Assembly (NCBI GenBank): GCA_021730945.1
Contig: JAKFYH010000002.1
Coordinates: forward strand, 1 to 64,000
DNA: 64,000 bases
Source: Acidobacteriota bacterium
GTDB lineage: Bacteria; Acidobacteriota; Vicinamibacteria; Vicinamibacterales; UBA2999
Direction: 5' to 3'
Positions 42,742 to 51,012 of the stretch are shown here, piece after piece (positions within the stretch are counted from its first letter, which is position 1; every line of letters begins with the position of its first letter). The position numbers and the translations under genes are program-made. The notes beneath the pieces were generated by a model, which was given only the letters and a program-made list of their open reading frames with translations, did not search any database and was not told the DNA's origin.

Positions 42742-43440
42742 CTAGTCGATGGCCAACGTGCCGGTATAGATAGCCATGCCGACCACCGCGTCAATGCCAA
42801 GTGCATCAAGTGCATCGATGTCGGCGCGCGTCGTGATGCCGCCGGCGGCGGTCAGCTTGCGCTCGGTGGCGTTGGCCACGGACTTGATCGCCGACATGTC
42901 GGTGCCCTGCATCAGCCCTTCCTTGTCGACGTGGGTGTAGAGGAACTCCTCGCAGTAGCCCTCCAGTAACTGCACGGCCTGGACGGCGGTCAGCGGCAGC
43001 ACGGTCTTCCAGCCATGGATGCACACGCGACCCGCCCGTGAGTCGACCGCCGCGATCACGCGGTGCATGCCGACGGTGCCGGCCAGTGCGCTGGCGAAGT
43101 CGTGATCGACCATCTGCGACAGGTCGGTGCCGTCGCCGCGCCGGAACAGCCCGGAGCCGGCAATCACGGCCTGGGCGCCGGCGGCGATCAGCTCCTCGGC
43201 CCGTCGCACGCTGCGCACGCCGCCGCCAACACGGCAGGGCAATTGCGAGGCGATGGCGCGAACAAGCTGGTCGTTGTTGCCGCGCGACATCGCCGCATCC
43301 AGGTCGATGAGCTGGACCTTCGGGAACTTCGCGAACCTGGCGATCCAGCCGTCAAGGTCGTCGGAAGAGATCGCGAGTTTGTCGCCTTGCACGAGTTGGA
43401 CGACCTTGCCGCCCTGCAAATCAATCGAGGGGATCAACAT
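42742..43440 (-). CDS. hisA: phosphoribosylformimino-AICAR-phosphate isomerase HisA
   Basis: 232 residues. The (beta/alpha)8 barrel starts MLIPSIDLQGGKVVQLVQGD, with Asp8 region as catalytic base, and carries IDLDAAMSRGNND, PCRVGGGVRSVRRAEELIAA and the second phosphate loop TAAGGITTRADIDAL. It converts ProFAR to PRFAR in histidine synthesis. Last gene of the operon. Confidence 0.96.
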   Translation of the reverse strand: MLIPSIDLQGGKVVQLVQGDKLAISSDDLDGWIARFAKFPKVQLIDLDAAMSRGNNDQLVRAIASQLPCRVGGGVRSVRRAEELIAAGAQAVIAGSGLFRRGDGTDLSQMVDHDFASALAGTVGMHRVIAAVDSRAGRVCIHGWKTVLPLTAVQAVQLLEGYCEEFLYTHVDKEGLMQGTDMSAIKSVANATERKLTAAGGITTRADIDALDALGIDAVVGMAIYTGTLAID

Positions 43441-43443
43441 ACG

Positions 43444-43478
43444 TTTGCCACGGAGGACACAGAGGAGACAGAGAAATT
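43444..43478. repeat. CACGGAGGACACAGAGGAG repeat between hisA and hisF
   Basis: The 37-base gap contains GCCACGGAGGACACAGAGG followed by AGACAGAGAAAT. This is the wording of a purine-rich dispersed repeat I recall from many environmental genomes. Confidence 0.6.
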
Positions 43479-44251
43479 CAAACCCTTACGGGAATACCCG
43501 ATTCGCTCAAGAACAGCTTCAACGCGCTCACGCTCTTCTCGTTGAAGTGAAAGATCGAGGCCGCCAGGGCGGCATCGGCGTGCCCCTCCCTGAACACTTC
43601 GGCGAAGTGCGCGAAGGAACCGGCGCCACCTGACGCGATCACGGGGATGTTGACCGCCTCCGACACGGCGGCGGTCATGTCGCAGTCGAACCCCGCCTTC
43701 GTGCCGTCACGGTCGATCGAGGTCAGTAGAATCTCGCCGGCGCCACGGTCGGTCGCCTCGCGCGCCCATTCGATCGCGTCGCGGGTCGTGGCCGCCTGCC
43801 CCGATCTCGCAAACACATTGTAGGGCCCCCCTTGATTGGGGGTCCCGGCGCCCCGCTTGGCATCGATCGCGACGATGACCGCCTGGCTACCGTAGCGCTT
43901 GGCCAAGCGCGTGATCAGGTCAGGATTCTTCAACGCCGCCGTATTCAAGCTGACCTTGTCGGCGCCGGCCTCGATGGCGGCGGCGGCGTCGGCCTCGCTG
44001 TGGATGCCGCCCCCCACTGCCAGTGGCAGGAAGATCTCCCGCGCGACCGCGGCGATCGTGTGTGCGCGTGCCTGGCGAGCCTCGACCGTCGCGGTGACGT
44101 CGAGGATGACGATCTCGTCGATGCCCTCGACGTTGTAGCGCCGCGCCAGTTCGGCCGGATCCCCGGCTTCACGCAGGCCCTCGAAGTTGACGCCCTTGAC
44201 GACCTTGCCGTCGCGCACGTCGAGGCAGGCAATGATGCGCTTACTCAACAC
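43478..44251 (-). CDS. hisF: imidazole glycerol phosphate synthase cyclase subunit HisF
   Basis: 257 residues from GTG 44251. Catalytic Asp11 is in [20 protein letters not shown] and Asp ~136 region in [33 protein letters not shown] and [10 protein letters not shown] are the phosphate sites. It makes IGP and AICAR with ammonia from HisH. Between AIDAKR and ARSGQAAT there is an insertion ([12 protein letters not shown]) of about six residues relative to T. maritima HisF, which corresponds exactly to a palindromic repeat in the DNA. Confidence 0.97.
43823..43846. repeat. palindrome inside hisF (CCCCC-TTGATT-GGGGG)
   Basis: GGG/CCCCC at 43823-43831, loop TTGATT, GGGGG/T/CCC at 43838-43846. It is translated in frame as part of TPNQGGPYN, so the repeat has been absorbed by the gene. 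Confidence 0.75.
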
Positions 44252-44265
44252 AGAGTGCTACTCCA

Positions 44266-44370
44266 GGGCCGCAGATGACCAGATGCGACGGGGCCGCAGA
44301 TGACACAGATGCGACGGGGCCGCAGATGACCAGATGCGACGGGGCCGCAGATGACACAGATGACGCAGAT
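44266..44370. repeat. tandem GGGCCGCAGATGAC repeat, four units
   Basis: Units of 25, 26, 25 and 29 bases start at 44266, 44291, 44317 and 44342. They alternate CCAGATGCGACG and ACACAGATGCGACG endings; the last ends CAGATGACGCAGAT. Located between hisH and hisF inside the operon, same family as 16781-16900. Confidence 0.9.
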
Positions 44371-44378
44371 GGCTGAGC

Positions 44379-44981
44379 TCAACATGCTTGCCACCAGTTG
44401 CGCAGAATCTGCAGCCCGGCCGGACCCGACTTCTCCGGGTGGAACTGCACCGCCGAGACGTTGTTGCGCTCGACCGCGGCGCTGAACGGCACGCCGTATT
44501 CGCACGTCGCCGCCGTGTCGTCGATCACCGGTGCGGCAAAGGAGTGTGTGAAGTAGACCTGGGTTCCCTCGGCGATCCCGGCCATCAGCCGGCTTGGTCT
44601 CGGCATGGCGAGGCTGTTCCAGCCCACGTGCGGTACCTTCTGTCGCTCACCTTCGGGAAACGTGAAGGTGAAGCAGCGTCCCTTGAATACGCCGAGTCCC
44701 TCCACGTCAGGGGCCTCGGCGCTGCCTTCGAACAGCCACTGCAGCCCGACGCAGATGCCGAGCAGCGGCTTTCCGTCGGCGACTGCGTCCGTGATCGCCG
44801 CCCGCCAGTCGCCGGTCAACCCGCGCGTCGCGTCGAAGTGGCCGACGCCGGGGACAATGACGCCGGTCGCGCGGCTGAGTTCGCCGGGTACAGCCGGCGT
44901 CCAGACGCTGGCACCAATGGCTGCCAGGGCCTTGCGCACCGAGGCCAGGTTACCGGCGCCGTAGTCGACGAGTGCAATCAC
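44379..44981 (-). CDS. hisH: imidazole glycerol phosphate synthase glutaminase subunit HisH
   Basis: 200 residues from GTG 44981, which overlaps the hisB stop (GTGA). The start is set by [18 protein letters not shown], the invariant N-terminus. Class I amidotransferase Cys is in [15 protein letters not shown], with VPHVGWN and a C-terminal His in [20 protein letters not shown]. Supplies ammonia to HisF. Confidence 0.96.
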
Positions 44982-45565
44982 AGCAGGCCCTTGGTGCTCG
45001 GCAGCATGCGCGCCAACCGCTTGTCCTTCGCGCAGGCTACTCGCAGCGCCCGCGCGAACGCCTTGAAGCACGCCTCGATCTTGTGATGGTTCGAGCGGCC
45101 GTACATCACCTTAAGGTGCACGTTGGCCCGCGCGGCCATGGCGAAGCCGTCAAAGAAGTCGTGCACCAATTCCGTCTGCAGGTCGCCGACCATGCGGACA
45201 TTGACCTTGGAGTCGACCACGCAGTGGGGCCGGCCGCTGAGGTCGATTGCGGCCACGGCCAGTGTTTCGTCCATCGGCATCACGAAGTAGCCGGCGCGAT
45301 TGATGCCGCGCTTGTTGCCGATGGCGGCCAGTACGGCCTCGCCCAGCGCGATGCCGGTGTCTTCCACCGTGTGGTGCTGGTCGACATCGAGGTCGCCGGT
45401 GGCCTTGACCTTGAGATCGAAGCCGCCGTGCCGGGCCACCAGGTCCAGCATGTGATCGAGAAAGCGGATGCCGGTGCTGTTCTCGTACTTGCCCTTGCCG
45501 TCGAGCGACAGGGTCACCTTGATCTGTGTTTCGGCCGTCCGTCGATCGATTACCGCTCGGCGCAC
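44978..45565 (-). CDS. hisB: imidazoleglycerol-phosphate dehydratase HisB (monofunctional)
   Basis: 195 residues. GTG 45565 is chosen because GGAGG lies four bases upstream within the end of hisC, and because the protein should begin near [20 protein letters not shown]. Metal-ligand motifs are [34 protein letters not shown] and [12 protein letters not shown]. The N-terminal phosphatase domain of enterobacterial HisB is absent. Overlaps hisC by 16 bases. Confidence 0.94.
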
Positions 45566-46626
45566 AGGGCCTCCAGTGTCGCGACCGCGTGGCGAGTGTG
45601 CTCCGCGACGCCGGCGGTGAGCCGGAAGCAGTTGGGGCACGACGGGTCCTTCGTTCGATCGCGCACGAACACGCCCTTGGCGATCATTCCGTCCACCAGC
45701 GCTCGCGCGCGCTCACCGCCGTCGATCAAGACGAAGTTGGCGCCGCTCTTCCAGTAGCGAAGCCCGGCGCGGTCGCACGCGGCATACACCAGCTCCTTCG
45801 ATTCCTTCGCCTGTGCCACATACCAGGACCGAAACCCGGTGTCCGCAATTGCCGCCCGCAGTGCGGCCACCGCCACCACGTTGAGGTTGAACAGCGGCAT
45901 GGCGCGGCGAATGGGCGCGAGCACGGCGGGTGAGGCAATCATCACGCCGACCCGCATGCCCGCCAGCCCGAAGGCCTTCGAAAAGGTACGGCCGACAATC
46001 ACGTTCGGATACTCCGCCGCCTCGGCCAGGAAGTTCTCGCCCAGGAAGTCGTGATACGCCTCGTCCACGAACACCAGCGCGTGGCCGGCCTCGCGGGCAA
46101 TGCGGCGAATCGACGCCTGGGGAATGGGCTGGCCACTTGGGTTGTTGGGATTGTTGACGTAGACGATGCGGGTGTTCGGCGTGATCGCCTTGATCACGCC
46201 CTCCAGCGGGTAGGCGTAGTCAGGGCCGGCCGGCACCGACACCACCCGCGCGCCCATCGCGTGCGCGGTGCTCAGGTAGGGCTCGAACGCCGGTTGCGCC
46301 ACCAGGATTTCCGGCGTTCCCGACGGCGCGGTGAGCGGCGCCCCAAGTTCCACCAGCGCTTCGGGCGTCCGGTTGCCCAGGTAGCCGATCGATGCCAGCA
46401 GGATGCCTTCGTCGAGGCCGTTGGTCAGCACGATGCGATCGGGATCGACGCCAAGATACGCGGCGGTCTCGACGATGGCGTCGCGGAAGTCCGGGTACAG
46501 CGCCAGCCGCTGCGCATCGAACGCCCGGACGGCCTCAACCACCTTCGGCGAGCAGCCACCGGTGTTTTCGTTGAGGTGAAGCCTCAGGCCGGGGCCGAGG
46601 TCGGGTACGCCTTGAATGGTGGTCAT
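45550..46626 (-). CDS. hisC: histidinol-phosphate aminotransferase HisC
   Basis: 358 residues from ATG 46626. Fold-type I PLP enzyme: [50 protein letters not shown], and the PLP-lysine region [19 protein letters not shown]. It transaminates imidazole acetol phosphate with glutamate. 20 bases after the hisD stop. Confidence 0.95.
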
Positions 46627-46638
46627 ATGCGTGGTCTC

Positions 46639-46658
46639 GGCGGCGTTAAAGCGCCGCC
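46639..46658. repeat. palindrome carrying the hisD stop codon
   Basis: GGCGGCG (46639-46645), loop TTAAAG, CGCCGCC (46652-46658). The hisD TAA is the complement of 46646-46648, in the loop. Same design as the GCGACGGC-TTTA-GCCGTCGC hairpin at 51037. Confidence 0.8.
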
Positions 46659-47893
46659 CTCCGGGTTCTAATTTCAATGGAACGGGCGTGGGCTTCCAGG
46701 CCTTCGGCGCGCGCCAGGGTGGTTACCGTATCGGCAATACTCCTCAGGCCGGCTTGCGTCACGCGCTGCACGGACACCAGCTTCACGAAGTCGGCGGCGT
46801 TCAAGCCGCCACGATAGCGGGCCGCGCCGGCCGTTGGCAGCACATGATTCGAGCCGATGGCGTAGTCGCCGGCCACCTGCGCCGTCCACTCGCCAACGAA
46901 CACGGCTCCCGCGTTCCACACGCGTTTGGCCAGCGCCTCGGTGCCGACCACCAGGTGTTCCGGTGCCGCGTGGTTGGCCAGGTCGATGGCCTCGTTCAGG
47001 TCGCGGCAGATCACAATGCCACCGTGACGTTCGAGCGATTGCAGGGCCGGGCCGGTGTCGGGCATCTGCGCCGCCACTTCGCGGGCCACGCGGTCGGCCA
47101 GCGCGCGATTGGAGGTGATGAGCACCGCGCGCGCGTCGGGATCGTGTTCCGCCTGCGCAATCAGGTCGGCGGCGATCGCCGCCGCCGATCCGGACGAGGT
47201 CACGATCAGGATCTCGGTCGGTCCGGCGTAGAAGTCGATCCCGCAGTCGGCGGACACCAACGACTTGGCCGCCGACACCCAACGATTACCCGGTCCCACG
47301 ATCTTGTCGACCCGCGGAACGCTCGCGGTCCCATACGCCAGGGCGGCAATGGCCTGGGCGCCGCCCACCTGGAACAGCCGATCGACCCCCGCCTCAATCG
47401 CCGCCGCGAATACCGCCGCATCAGGCCGCGGGCAGGTCACCACGATCTCAGCCACCCCTGCCGCCCGGGCCGGTATCGCCGTCATCAGCAAGGACGAGGG
47501 CAGGGGATAGCGGCCGGCTGGCACATAGCAGCCCACCCGCAGCAAGGGGATCACGCGCTGTTCGACGTTAATCCCGGCGGCCACCTGCTTGCGCCAGCCC
47601 CTGGGCACCTGGGCTTTGGCCACGGCGCGAATATTCACGGCCGCACGCTTGATGGCCGCCCGCACGCCCGGCGCCAACGCGCGTGCCTTCACCTCCCAAT
47701 CACGACGCGGCACCTCGATGGCGCCCTTCAGCCCATCGAGGTCGCGGGCCAGCTTCACCAGCGCCCGGTCACCATCCTTGCGCACACTCTCGACGATGGC
47801 GGCCGCGCGCGCTTCCGTCGCCTTGTCCCTGATTCGCGTGGCCGACAGCAGCCCGGCCACGGCGCGCCGATTCTCGGACTGAACAATTCTCAT
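46646..47893 (-). CDS. hisD: histidinol dehydrogenase HisD
   Basis: 415 residues. Signature blocks include GGAQAIAALAYGTASVPRVD, KIVGPGNRWVSAAKSLVSAD, CGIDFYAGPTEILIVTSSGS, LIAQAEHDPDARAVLIT and NHVLPTAGAARYRGGLNAAD, with the zinc ligands Gln/His in AQAEHD. It oxidises histidinol to histidine with two NAD+. The last codons (TRRAAL-stop) are formed by a palindromic repeat. Confidence 0.96.
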   Translation of the reverse strand: MRIVQSENRRAVAGLLSATRIRDKATEARAAAIVESVRKDGDRALVKLARDLDGLKGAIEVPRRDWEVKARALAPGVRAAIKRAAVNIRAVAKAQVPRGWRKQVAAGINVEQRVIPLLRVGCYVPAGRYPLPSSLLMTAIPARAAGVAEIVVTCPRPDAAVFAAAIEAGVDRLFQVGGAQAIAALAYGTASVPRVDKIVGPGNRWVSAAKSLVSADCGIDFYAGPTEILIVTSSGSAAAIAADLIAQAEHDPDARAVLITSNRALADRVAREVAAQMPDTGPALQSLERHGGIVICRDLNEAIDLANHAAPEHLVVGTEALAKRVWNAGAVFVGEWTAQVAGDYAIGSNHVLPTAGAARYRGGLNAADFVKLVSVQRVTQAGLRSIADTVTTLARAEGLEAHARSIEIRTRRAAL

Positions 47894-47894
47894 C

Positions 47895-47976
47895 GCAGTA
47901 ACTCACCCAATCCCAAAATCACCAAATCCGAGCGCCACAATCCCGAGATCCCCAATTCACCAGACCCAGAGATTCG
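47895..47976. repeat. CCCAATCACCAAATCC-style degenerate repeat between hisG and hisD
   Basis: The 83-base gap contains CACCCAATCCCAAAATCACC, AAATCCGAGCGCCACAATCC and CCCAATTCACCAGACCC. Its wording is close to the ATTGCC/GATCTGGTGA gap repeats elsewhere. No coding signal. Confidence 0.55.
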
Positions 47977-48864
47977 CTAGACCACAATCTTATTGAGCGG
48001 GTACTCGACAATGCCCTGTCCGCCGGCCGCCTTCAGCCGCGGAATCAGGTCGCGGGCGACCTTTTCTTCCAGAATCGTGTTGATGGCCACCCACTCCGGA
48101 TCGCTCAACGACGATACCGTCGGCCGTTGCAGCGCCGGCAGCAGGCCGATCAGCTTCTCCACGTCGGTGCGCTTCGCATTAAGCATCAGCCCGACCCGGC
48201 CCTGTGCGTCGATCGCAGCGCGCAGCAGCAGCGCCAGGTTCTCGATCTTGGTCTTCTTCCAGCCGTCGGTCATCGCCGACTGGTTGGCGATCAACTGCGT
48301 GTTGGATTCCATGATGGTCTCGAGAATCCGCAGCCGGTTGGCGCGCAGGGTCGAGCCGGTCTCGGTGGCTTCGACGATGGCGTCGGCCAGCACCGGCGGC
48401 TTGACCTCGGTGGCGCCCCACGAGAATTCGACGTCGACGTCAAGGCCCTGGGTGGTGAAGTAGTGCCTGGTGACGCGGACCAGTTCGGTGGCGATGCGCT
48501 TGCCGTTGAGGTCGGCGACCGTCTTGAACGGCGAGTCTTCCGGCGCGGCCAGCACCCACTTCACCTTGCCGAAGCTTTGCTTGGAGTAGACCAGGTCGCA
48601 GATCCGCGCCAGCGGCGCCTGCTCGGGGTGGCCGATCTCGTGTTCGGCGATCCAGTCCTGGCCGGTGAGGCCGGCGTCGAGCACGCCATCGGCGACATAG
48701 CGCGCCATCTCCTGCGCCCGGATCAGCATGCACTCGATCTCGATATCGTCGATCGACGGAAAATACGAGCGCGAGTCAATGCGCACCTGGTAACCCGCGC
48801 GCTGGAACAACTGGATGGTTGAATCCTGCAGCGAGCCCTTCGGAATGCCTAATTTCAACTTCAT
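47977..48864 (-). CDS. hisG: ATP phosphoribosyltransferase HisG, long form
   Basis: 295 residues, the homohexameric long form with a C-terminal ACT-like regulatory domain (from about residue 220) rather than the short HisZ-dependent form. Catalytic-core motifs are [48 protein letters not shown] and [20 protein letters not shown]. First committed step of histidine synthesis, expected to be inhibited by histidine. Second gene of the operon. Confidence 0.96.
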
Positions 48865-48888: not shown

Positions 48889-48908
48889 GGCAGCACTAAC
48901 GTGCTGCC
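48889..48908. repeat. palindrome carrying the hisI stop codon
   Basis: GGCAGCAC (48889-48896), loop TAAC, GTGCTGCC (48901-48908), a perfect 8-bp stem. The hisI TAG (complement of 48896-48898) lies at the stem-loop junction, and the codons for SRAAR are inside the repeat. Confidence 0.85.
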
Positions 48909-49228
48909 CTACTGGTGTTTGGAAACTCGGTGTAGAAGCAGGTGCGCTGACCGGTGTGGCAGACGTTGCCGTCGCCTTCGCGCGTCACCTTGATCAGCAC
49001 CGTGTCATCGTCGCAATCCACGAACATCTGTCGCACGGCGAGCCGGTTGCCCGACGTTTCGCCCTTCATCCACAGCTTGTTGCGCGTGCGGCTGAAGAAG
49101 GTGACGTAGCCGGTCTCCTGCGTCAGCCGCCAGGCTTCGTCATTCATGAAGCCGACCATCAGCACCTCGTTGGTGCTTTCGTCCTGCACCACCGCCGGAA
49201 TCAACCCGTCCAGTTTTGAAAAGTCCAT
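48896..49228 (-). CDS. hisI: phosphoribosyl-AMP cyclohydrolase HisI
   Basis: 110 residues from ATG 49228. Zinc/magnesium motifs are DCDDD at 71-75 and [12 protein letters not shown] with Cys90 and Cys97; [20 protein letters not shown] is family-typical. No HisE (phosphoribosyl-ATP pyrophosphatase) domain follows, unlike enteric HisIE. First structural gene after the attenuator, which is unusual since hisG often leads. Confidence 0.95.
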
Positions 49229-49240
49229 AACGTCCCTGAA

Positions 49241-49268
49241 AACAAAAAGCCCGCCGTTGCCGGCGGGC
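49241..49268 (-). terminator. attenuator terminator of the his operon
   Basis: On the transcribed strand GCCCGCCG-GCAA-CGGCGGGC forms a perfect 8-bp stem with a GNRA tetraloop, followed by TTTTTGTTTT. It lies 43 bases after the leader-peptide stop and 12 bases before the hisI ATG, so it can only be a premature (attenuator) terminator. A GCCGGC word in the leader (49328-49333) could pair with the GCCGGC of the 5' arm as an antiterminator. Confidence 0.92.
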
Positions 49269-49310
49269 CTTTGCGTGAAACGAATCCTGGTGGATGTCGG
49301 TTCGGTTTCC

Positions 49311-49391
49311 TTACGCGCAAACTCCTGCCGGCCGTTTCGGTGAACGGTGGTGATGGCTGCGGTGCGCGTGGTGAACCAACGACATGACCAT
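49311..49391 (-). CDS. hisL: histidine operon leader peptide
   Basis: 26 residues starting ATG 49391 (ATG 49385 in the same frame is an alternative) and ending TAA 49311-49313. The peptide reads MVMSLVHHAHRSHHHRS..., with six histidine codons at residues 7, 8, 10, 13, 14 and 15. Immediately after them CCGTT-CACCGA-AACGG can form a pause/1:2 hairpin. Ribosome stalling at these codons when His-tRNA is scarce would favour the antiterminator over the terminator at 49241-49268. No strong Shine-Dalgarno was seen. Confidence 0.88.
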   Translation of the reverse strand: MVMSLVHHAHRSHHHRSPKRPAGVCA

Positions 49392-49428
49392 AAAAGGGTA
49401 GTTGATCCCTGGCGGGAAATGCAACCCG

Positions 49429-51012
49429 CTACGGTTTTCTCGGCATTCGTTCGGTCGTGTTCGCCGCGTACCAGGCAAACACCGCCGCGACCGCGCCCTG
49501 CTGGATCACATCGTCTTTCTGCACGTGATCGAACGAGTCCATGTTCGAGTGATGGGTGCGCGAGTTGTACTCCAGCCGCTCCTGGATGAACTGGAACCCC
49601 GGAATGCCGGCCTCGTCGAACGAGCCGTGGTCGGTCTGGCTGACCGAGCGCGGGCTCACGTTCTTCCAGCCAATGTCCTTGAGCGGCTTGCCCCACTCCT
49701 CGAACATCTTCATGGCGCCGGTGTTGCCCTGGCCCCAGATGCCGACGATGCGGCCGGTGCCGTTGTCGAGGTTGAAGTAGGCCTGGACGTTGGCCTGCTC
49801 GGGCTTGGCCGTCTTGGTTTTGGGGTCGTAGTAATGGCGGGCCACATACTCACGCGAACCCAGCAGGCCCTGCTCCTCGGCCGCCCACAGCGCCACGCGA
49901 ATGGTGCGCCGCGGCTTCAGGCCGAGCGACTGGATTACCCTGACGGCTTCGATCATGGCCGCCGAACCGGTGGTGTTGTCGGTGGCGCCGGTGGCGTAGG
50001 GGTAGGTGTCGAAGTGGGCACCCATGATTACCACCTCATGGGCCAGGTCGCTGCCCGGGATCTCGGCAATGATGTTGAACGCGTTGCCCGCCGGATCCGT
50101 TTCCGGATGGAACCGGGTCTGGATGTTCACCTCCATTCGCACCGACTGGCCGCGGGCCAGGAGGCGGACGATGCGGTTGTAATGCTCCACCGCAATCGTG
50201 GCCGACGGCACCGGCGCCGGCGCCTTCGGGTCGCGGCTACCGCCGTTACCAGGGAAGATTGTGCCGCCGTCGACGACCTGGGTCTGCCACGACAGGTTGC
50301 TGCCGCCGGCCGGCGAATCGTTGTCGGAGCCGCGATCGAGGAACACCGCCGCGCCCTCGTCGGCCAGGAAGCGCTGGAGCGAGGCAGGGGTCACGCGCGC
50401 GGCGGCGCCGGTGGCCGGCGCGGCTGGCGGCGCGGCAGAAGTGGCCGGTGCGGCAACCGGCAGCTTCATGGCCTCAGCCCAATCGGCGTCGTTCATCTGC
50501 AACACGACCCGCCCGTCGAGCATGCGCACCACGCGGACGCCCTGGCTGATGACGATCTTGCCCCGCAATTGCCCCTTGTACTTCGCCAGGTCGCCTTCGG
50601 TTGCGGCCTGCACGTGGACCACGTCCGAAGTCACCGGACCGCTGGTCGAGGGCGAGTTCCAGCGCGGCTGGCCAATCAACACGGCCATCTGCGGCGCCGT
50701 CATGTGCGCGGAAAACCGCTCGATGGTCCAACCCTGGCCGAACGGGAAGCGCTCGATGTGGATGTTCTGCAGGCCCCACTCAGCGAACTTCTTCATCACC
50801 CAGTCGGCGCCCTGGCGGTAGCCGGGCGTGCCGGTCGCGCGCGGGCCGTAAACCTCCGACAGCCACCAGTGCGTCTCCATCGCCTGCGAGCGCGTGATGG
50901 CCTCGCCGCGGATGCGGTTGATGGTATTGGGGTCGACGCCGGCCGGCGCCTGCGCGGCCAGCGAAAGAGTGATGGTGAGCAGGGACAGGGTTGGAAAGAT
51001 CGCGCGTCTCAT
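49429..51012 (-). CDS. secreted M28 family metallopeptidase
   Basis: 527 residues with signal peptide. A PA insert is present around residues 110-300 (DEGAAVFLDRGSDNDSPAGG). The M28 catalytic segment is HEVVIMGAHFDTYPYATGAT (zinc ligands His, Asp), DNTTGSAAMIEAVRV, WAAEEQGLLGSREYV (Glu base and ligand) and the last His in QTDHGSFDEAGIPG. Likely an exported aminopeptidase or carboxypeptidase. The stop lies only 38 bases before the his leader, so the his promoter must overlap the end of this gene. Confidence 0.92.
   Translation of the reverse strand: MRRAIFPTLSLLTITLSLAAQAPAGVDPNTINRIRGEAITRSQAMETHWWLSEVYGPRATGTPGYRQGADWVMKKFAEWGLQNIHIERFPFGQGWTIERFSAHMTAPQMAVLIGQPRWNSPSTSGPVTSDVVHVQAATEGDLAKYKGQLRGKIVISQGVRVVRMLDGRVVLQMNDADWAEAMKLPVAAPATSAAPPAAPATGAAARVTPASLQRFLADEGAAVFLDRGSDNDSPAGGSNLSWQTQVVDGGTIFPGNGGSRDPKAPAPVPSATIAVEHYNRIVRLLARGQSVRMEVNIQTRFHPETDPAGNAFNIIAEIPGSDLAHEVVIMGAHFDTYPYATGATDNTTGSAAMIEAVRVIQSLGLKPRRTIRVALWAAEEQGLLGSREYVARHYYDPKTKTAKPEQANVQAYFNLDNGTGRIVGIWGQGNTGAMKMFEEWGKPLKDIGWKNVSPRSVSQTDHGSFDEAGIPGFQFIQERLEYNSRTHHSNMDSFDHVQKDDVIQQGAVAAVFAWYAANTTERMPRKP

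Follow-up and report, generated by a model that had tools for sequence, protein, structure and literature searches.

A putative histidine attenuator ahead of the hisI-first operon of Acidobacteriota, with a probably leaderless leader peptide

Does the histidine operon of an Acidobacteriota bacterium carry a ribosome-mediated transcription attenuator and, if it does, how is translation of its leader peptide begun? The question is raised by a locus on the minus strand of a 64,000-nucleotide stretch of DNA (the window, meaning the whole stretch that was analysed), in which a short reading frame rich in His codons and a terminator-like hairpin precede hisI. In enteric bacteria the his attenuator joins a leader with His codons to alternative antiterminator and terminator structures (PMC3896937, in excerpt). 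Attenuators of the his operon are described for Proteobacteria and some Firmicutes, the latter being the Bacillus cereus group, some Eubacteriales and Erysipelotrichales (PMC9413887, in excerpt), and gamma-proteobacteria, Bacillus and Clostridium difficile are named as carrying His-dependent leaders in the portion available of PMC4833913. According to the accessible part of a 2010 survey, hardly any attenuator predicted in phyla like Acidobacteria had been given a function (PMC2965389).

The first structural gene behind the leader is hisI (48896-49228, minus strand), which matches the NCBIfam profile NF000768 with 142.9 bits against a cut-off of 126; its ATG is at 49228, with a likely ribosome site, AGGGA, at 49237-49233. 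This match confirms the identity that an earlier note on this DNA had given to the gene behind the terminator described below. Downstream on the same strand (42742-48864) are hisG, hisD, hisC, hisB, hisH, hisF and hisA, giving the order hisI-G-D-C-B-H-F-A with leader and terminator ahead of hisI. The best family for hisC is indeed hisC, yet the score falls under the NCBIfam cut-off, and hisA was assigned by reading its translation, without a profile scan. Inside the operon, between hisH and hisF, there is a tandem direct repeat of about 25-26 nt (GGGCCGCAGATGACCAGATGCGAC...) at 44266-44362. On the other side of the leader, and on the same strand, a peptidase-like gene ends with a stop codon at 49431-49429, 43 nt 5' of the leader ATG; we take it to be of the M28 kind, and in NCBIfam it has a weak aminopeptidase match (50 bits against a cut-off of 600).

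Read on the minus strand from 49391 to 49311, the leader frame translates as MVMSLVHHAHRSHHHRSPKRPAGVCA*, and the earlier note had described it as a leader of 26 codons with six His codons. The six His codons stand, but the length does not: the start common to the relatives is at 49385, which gives MSLVHHAHRSHHHRSPKRPAGVCA*, a peptide of 24 codons (49385-49311, stop codon at 49313-49311) supported by the sequence and by the relatives. The ATG at 49391 is absent from the relatives shown in the alignment and probably lies 5' of the RNA start, and we rejected it as the start codon. Right behind the last His codon a 1:2 hairpin can form between CCGTT (49347-49343) and AACGG (49336-49332), just where it had first been noticed; in many relatives of the family it takes the form CCGTTC/GAACGG, with compensatory changes in two of its six pairs. 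Segment 2, the 5' strand of the antiterminator (GCCGGCAGG..TTTGCG, 49332-49316), lies within the last codons of the leader, and segment 3, the 3' strand (CGCAAA..CCCGCCGGC, 49275-49259), overlaps the 5' arm of the terminator; GCCGGC-A-GG and TTTGCG in the one can pair with CGCAAA and CC-C-GCCGGC in the other. The GCCGGC word at 49332-49327 can thus pair with the terminator 5' arm, as had been proposed, but the antiterminator extends beyond this one word. The intrinsic terminator (49272-49239) consists of an 8-bp GC stem with a GNRA loop, GCCCGCCG-GCAA-CGGCGGGC (49268-49249), which flanking G-U and A-U pairs lengthen to 12 bp in all, and a T-run, TTTTTGTTTT, at 49248-49239. Stem, loop and T-run agree with the original description, whereas the distance from the end of the T-run to the hisI ATG is 10 nt and not 12. 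RNA folding, a check that the earlier note had put forward, made the 152-nt region more stable than 200 of 200 shuffles (z -3.2), although this z-score is the weaker evidence and the case for more than chance is carried mainly by the comparison across relatives.

Relatives of hisI were taken from three sources, namely 119 genomes of the order, 94 of them with a match (G059, G088, G089 and G113 were left out), a collection with record titles, in which 80 of 156 confirmed loci were kept, and the phylum as a whole, with a match in 194 of 297 genomes. The first two sources together gave 170 loci with 122 distinct upstream regions; the compared sequences are kin, and counts made on them are not independent. 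His runs were counted in the 119 regions whose upstream sequence covers 300 bases or more (L009, L079 and L102 left out). Six of the 122 regions have fewer than four His in 12 codons (L030, L054, L069, L079, L081 and L090) and in five the script detected no start (L060, L065, L092, L102 and L161), which leaves 111 leaders; in L060, L065 and L069 a shorter His frame is apparently present and was skipped by the script. Tests of the antiterminator, the ribosome states and the leader fold were made on the 101 leaders with a terminator.

At least four His within 12 codons were found upstream of hisI in 114 of the 119 regions; dinucleotide shuffles reached this number in 40 of 595 cases and the opposite strands in 8 of 119. 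At least five were found in 103 of the 119, against 1 of 595 dinucleotide shuffles. Both His codons are in use across the regions (CAC 366 times, CAT 344 times). Genomes of the order contributed 90 loci; 88 of these have four His or more, and the script found a leader with a start codon in 86 and a terminator in 78. Median length among the 111 leaders is 24 codons and median His content six, with the first His at codon 5-7 in 87 of them; they begin with ATG (96) or GTG (15). A stem with a T-run lies between leader and hisI in 101 of the 111, as compared with about 4% of mononucleotide shuffles; here the terminator arm begins a median of 34 nt past the leader stop codon, and the T-run ends a median of 46 nt 5' of hisI, which usually leaves the Shine-Dalgarno sequence outside the hairpin. 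The stems chosen for L114, L158 and L169 among these 101 are poor, and of the ten leaders that failed the terminator criterion, half have a stem and T-run when inspected by eye and the other five do not. The earlier note had named a lack of conservation of the His codons or terminator in relatives as grounds for giving up its reading; with 114 of 119 regions and 101 of 111 leaders retaining them, the comparison came out the other way. Since terminators after gene ends are ordinary and the region is short, the hairpin might be taken for nothing more than a terminator belonging to the upstream gene, or for a stray one, with the His-rich frame beside it by coincidence, but the regular succession of His-rich frame and terminator before hisI in those 101 leaders, with the coupled pairing described below, makes this scarcely credible.

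The same figures bear on the level at which control would be exercised. Some attenuators act on translation (PMC9413887, in excerpt), and sequestration of the hisI Shine-Dalgarno sequence, rather than termination of transcription, could be the outcome here as well, a reading to which the five loci that lack a clear T-run (L072, L073, L075, L151 and L157) lend some weight. A stem with a T-run in 101 of 111 leaders, at a median of 46 nt before hisI and with the Shine-Dalgarno sequence usually outside the hairpin, argues instead for termination, and we consider control at hisI translation very unlikely. In the five loci themselves, which have a His leader, a hairpin and GC-rich sequence before hisI, control is perhaps translational.

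An antiterminator pairing that competes with the terminator is predicted across the relatives. The antiterminator duplex has a mean energy of -28.0 kcal/mol, as against -20.6 for its own shuffles and -24.3 for non-cognate partners (n = 101); it is better than the mean of its own shuffles in 98 of 101 leaders and than the non-cognate mean in 79, and better than all 20 own shuffles in only 49. The stretch from the His cluster to the stop codon is more stable than its own shuffle mean in 81 of 101. The earlier note had proposed that relatives be tested for the alternative pairings, and the antiterminator and 1:2 pairs do covary in an alignment of 14 similar leaders chosen from the 101, where five of the 17 pairs of both structures changed on both sides, a number reached in 0 of 500 shuffles; this covariation amounts to six cells in 14 chosen and kindred leaders from which the structure was itself derived, so the test favours it. 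Sliding the partners by 1-3 columns in this alignment lowers the paired cells from 94% to 28-45%. Further pair types in the 14 leaders are not above shuffles (188 of 500), and covariation in the terminator helix alone, which has too little variation, is not above chance. In L134, L095, L164, L166 and L170, segment 2 (GGTGATGGT) is complementary to His codons (ACCATCACC), and the 1:2 pairing can involve the His codons there; folds were made for L095 and L134.

The pairing data also bear on whether the peptide could be the functional product. The pattern HH.HR.HHHRS.NGPAG.. is mostly kept in close relatives, as would be expected if the leader were a functional His-rich micropeptide, for example a metal-binding one, to which the hairpins were secondary. 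In distant relatives, however, the His run stays and the C-terminal part differs, and in 79 of 101 leaders the pairing of this differing part with its cognate terminator arm is still the stronger one when set against non-cognate arms, so that a micropeptide appears highly improbable and an attenuator leader is the reading that we retain.

For the ribosome states, a model was used in which RNA is freed 12 nt past the codon and folded before the terminator 3' arm exists. The predicted probability that the terminator 5' arm is sequestered averaged 0.79 for a ribosome on the first His codon (98 of 101 leaders exceeded 0.5), 0.63 for one on the last His codon (72 of 101) and 0.25 for one on the stop codon (12 of 101); the values for the window itself are 0.76, 0.76 and 0.10. 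For full-length RNA the model on average prefers the terminator whichever of these codons the ribosome occupies (0.61 for the first His, 0.82 for the last His and 0.86 for the stop), and likewise in the window (0.87, 0.94 and 0.95). As the terminator is favoured at full length even with a stalled ribosome, control must be kinetic and take place during RNA synthesis. It is usual for the switching of an attenuator to be decided during transcription.

The features by which an attenuator of this class is recognised are a short leader frame rich in codons for the regulated amino acid, found in 114 of 119 regions, an intrinsic terminator, found in 101 of 111 leaders and at 49272-49239 in the window, and an antiterminator that excludes the terminator and draws on a segment covered by the ribosome when it stands at the stop codon, for which prediction and covariation speak. 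These parts, their order and conservation, the compensatory changes in antiterminator and 1:2 hairpin and the predicted occupancies are all read from sequence. Judged on them, the region is very probably a ribosome-mediated transcription attenuator of the hisIGDCBHFA operon. We infer stalling, termination and the direction of control as follows. RNA polymerase would start 1-4 nt 5' of the leader AUG, and a ribosome would engage the 5' end of the RNA without a Shine-Dalgarno sequence and translate the 24-codon His-rich leader behind the polymerase. When charged tRNA-His is plentiful, the ribosome would reach the stop codon (49313-49311) and mask segment 2 in the last codons; with segment 2 masked, the terminator (49272-49239) would form and transcription would end before hisI. 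When tRNA-His is scarce, the ribosome would stall at the His codons and leave segment 2 free to pair with segment 3, and this pairing would take the 5' arm of the terminator and allow the polymerase to proceed into hisI.

How widely the leader is distributed can be judged in part from the record titles among the relatives, which include Vicinamibacterales, Luteitalea, Bryobacterales and Terriglobia. In NCBI taxonomy Bryobacterales belongs to class Terriglobia and Vicinamibacterales to class Vicinamibacteria, and the presence of both among the titles means that, going by titles, two classes carry the leader. Among L031, L051, L058 and L063 several titles (Acidimicrobiia, Sulfopaludibacter) are odd given the high identity to Vicinamibacterales-like hisI, and the odd-titled records are possibly mislabelled MAGs. 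Outside the order, 43 loci (41 distinct) were sampled, made up of 40 regions chosen from the phylum-wide matches together with L188, L190 and L191. A leader with at least five His was found in 13 of the 41 distinct regions (one of the 13, L191, is the same region as L105 in the first set). In the other 28 regions, most of them with lower hisI identity, there is no leader within about 500 nt before hisI; one of these, L222, has four His in a frame that we judged to be chance. The 28 also include three genomes of the same class and another family, L218-L220, in which by reading hisI seems to come after another his gene.

It remains to ask where the leader RNA begins. Pairs of -35 and -10 boxes were scored in the 100 nt before each leader start codon, with approximate E. 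coli frequencies as weights, in 109 leaders (two of the 111, with less than 80 nt upstream, were dropped). In 99 of the 109 the end of the best -10 box falls 4-11 nt 5' of the start codon (mode 9, with exactly 9 nt in 50 leaders), against 229 of 2180 shuffles, and the mean score is 7.2 at leaders and 3.0 in shuffles. The relatives have a sigma-70-type promoter adjoining the leader, in many of them with a full TTGACA, which the earlier note had overlooked. In every one of the 13 leaders from outside the class the promoter lies 6-10 nt 5' of the start codon, and 11 of them have TTGACA. No Shine-Dalgarno enrichment was found at the leaders, where the mean anti-Shine-Dalgarno pairing energy is -2.7 against -2.9 in shuffles, the value at hisI being -4.8. 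A -10 box near the start codon and the lack of a Shine-Dalgarno signal, the two marks of a leaderless start, are thus both seen in the set as a whole.

In the window itself the promoter is less distinct. A putative -35 box, TTGCAT (49424-49419), is weak and was placed by alignment with relatives, and a putative -10 box, TACCCT (49400-49395), follows after an 18-nt spacer, 9 nt 5' of the leader start. At the -35 place L002, L003, L005 and L006 have TTGC and L080 and L139 have TTGACT, and the hexamer TACCCT occurs 9-10 nt before the start in L002-L005. It is because the close relatives have TTGCNN and TACCCT there that this pair was assigned as the window promoter, although it scores below the top pair of the window, TTCCCG-17-TTTTAT, which lies 4 nt before the start and whose own score is attained in 285 of 1000 shuffles; a strict promoter scan of the window listed none. 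Internal his promoters of C. glutamicum have a distance of 7 +/- 1 nt from the -10 box to the transcription start (PMC3896937, in excerpt). Applied here, this distance gives a 5' UTR of about 1-4 nt and a predicted start region at 49389-49386.

These observations leave room for one other reading of the same attenuator, in which the leader is read from a longer transcript, begun at an upstream promoter or by read-through from the peptidase-like gene, and the -10 box beside the start codon is idle here. The upstream gene, on the same strand, stops at 49429, only 43 nt short of the leader ATG, and the window promoter escapes the strict scan. It also scores no better than shuffles, on account of which we lowered our confidence in a leaderless start and raised this alternative. 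It is nonetheless unlikely, as in 99 of 109 leaders, and in all 13 from outside the class, the promoter keeps a fixed place before the start codon, in many with a full TTGACA, and as the leaders have no Shine-Dalgarno enrichment. From the promoter adjoining the start codon and the missing enrichment we infer that, given an attenuator, translation of the leader probably begins on a leaderless mRNA. It further seems fairly likely that in at least two classes of Acidobacteriota the sensor peptide of the his attenuator is read from a leaderless RNA end, with initiation free of a ribosome-binding site conserved in the timing of the sensor; if this is true, the first ribosome must load straight onto the emerging 5' AUG. 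A scan around leuA, trpE and ilvB in this genome for further leaders of the leaderless type gave none that was convincing, and as it also missed the control his leader (L001) it is uninformative.

The mechanism is of a known kind, and the probable leaderless start is an addition to the earlier note. Enteric hisL has an ordinary ribosome site. The description of the region as a classical His attenuator consequently holds with a qualification, in that the promoter of the relatives adjoins the start codon, without Shine-Dalgarno enrichment, unlike enteric hisL. Rfam 15 gives no match at gathering score to the His_leader family (RF00514), and none to the T-box, in the window or in 20 chosen relatives. 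At E-values up to 10 there are 15 Rfam matches in 49180-49470, with neither RF00514 nor the T-box among them; they include RNAI (0.0039), Phe_leader (1), Leu_leader (1.3), Thr_leader (2) and Trp_leader (7.4), all far under gathering scores and indicating no membership. The literature covered, beyond which most subscription papers lie, yielded no his attenuator in Acidobacteriota and no leaderless his leader. In the main text of PMC9413887 the word "acidobacteria" occurs 0 times, and its excerpts do not discuss leaderless starts.

Enteric hisL and the locus described here have in common a leader peptide with His codons and an antiterminator and terminator before the his operon. They differ in that hisI comes first here and the His codons are interspersed, whereas the enteric leader has seven in a row, and in that here there is no Shine-Dalgarno signal at the leader and, in relatives, the promoter lies beside the start codon. 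The his attenuators of Firmicutes are alike in combining a His-leader peptide with terminator and antiterminator outside the Proteobacteria, but they have three to five His in a row and belong to another phylum (PMC9413887, in excerpt). The leaders of Actinobacteria resemble the present one in a different respect, as attenuator leader peptides that begin at the RNA 5' end, or one nucleotide from it, without a ribosome-binding site: transcription of ilvBNC in C. glutamicum begins one nucleotide away from the start codon of the leader (PMC11857589, in excerpt, citing Morbach 2000), and the leuL, trpL and ilvL leaders of Streptomyces lividans are leaderless (PMC8079986, in excerpt). Those leaders sense Leu, Trp, Val/Ile and others, with no His among the eight S. 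lividans leaders in the portion available of PMC8079986, and the accessible part of PMC3896937 gives C. glutamicum hisD as being without a His leader. In three Acidobacteria, an average of 13.3% of genes were predicted to be leaderless (PMC3160421, in excerpt), and for such starts the his operon would provide a specific and conserved case. An attenuator with a clear function can now be placed in Acidobacteriota, at 88 of 90 loci of the order and in 13 of 41 distinct regions outside it, and its probable leaderless start, if borne out, would show his attenuation joined with leaderless sensing outside the Actinobacteria.
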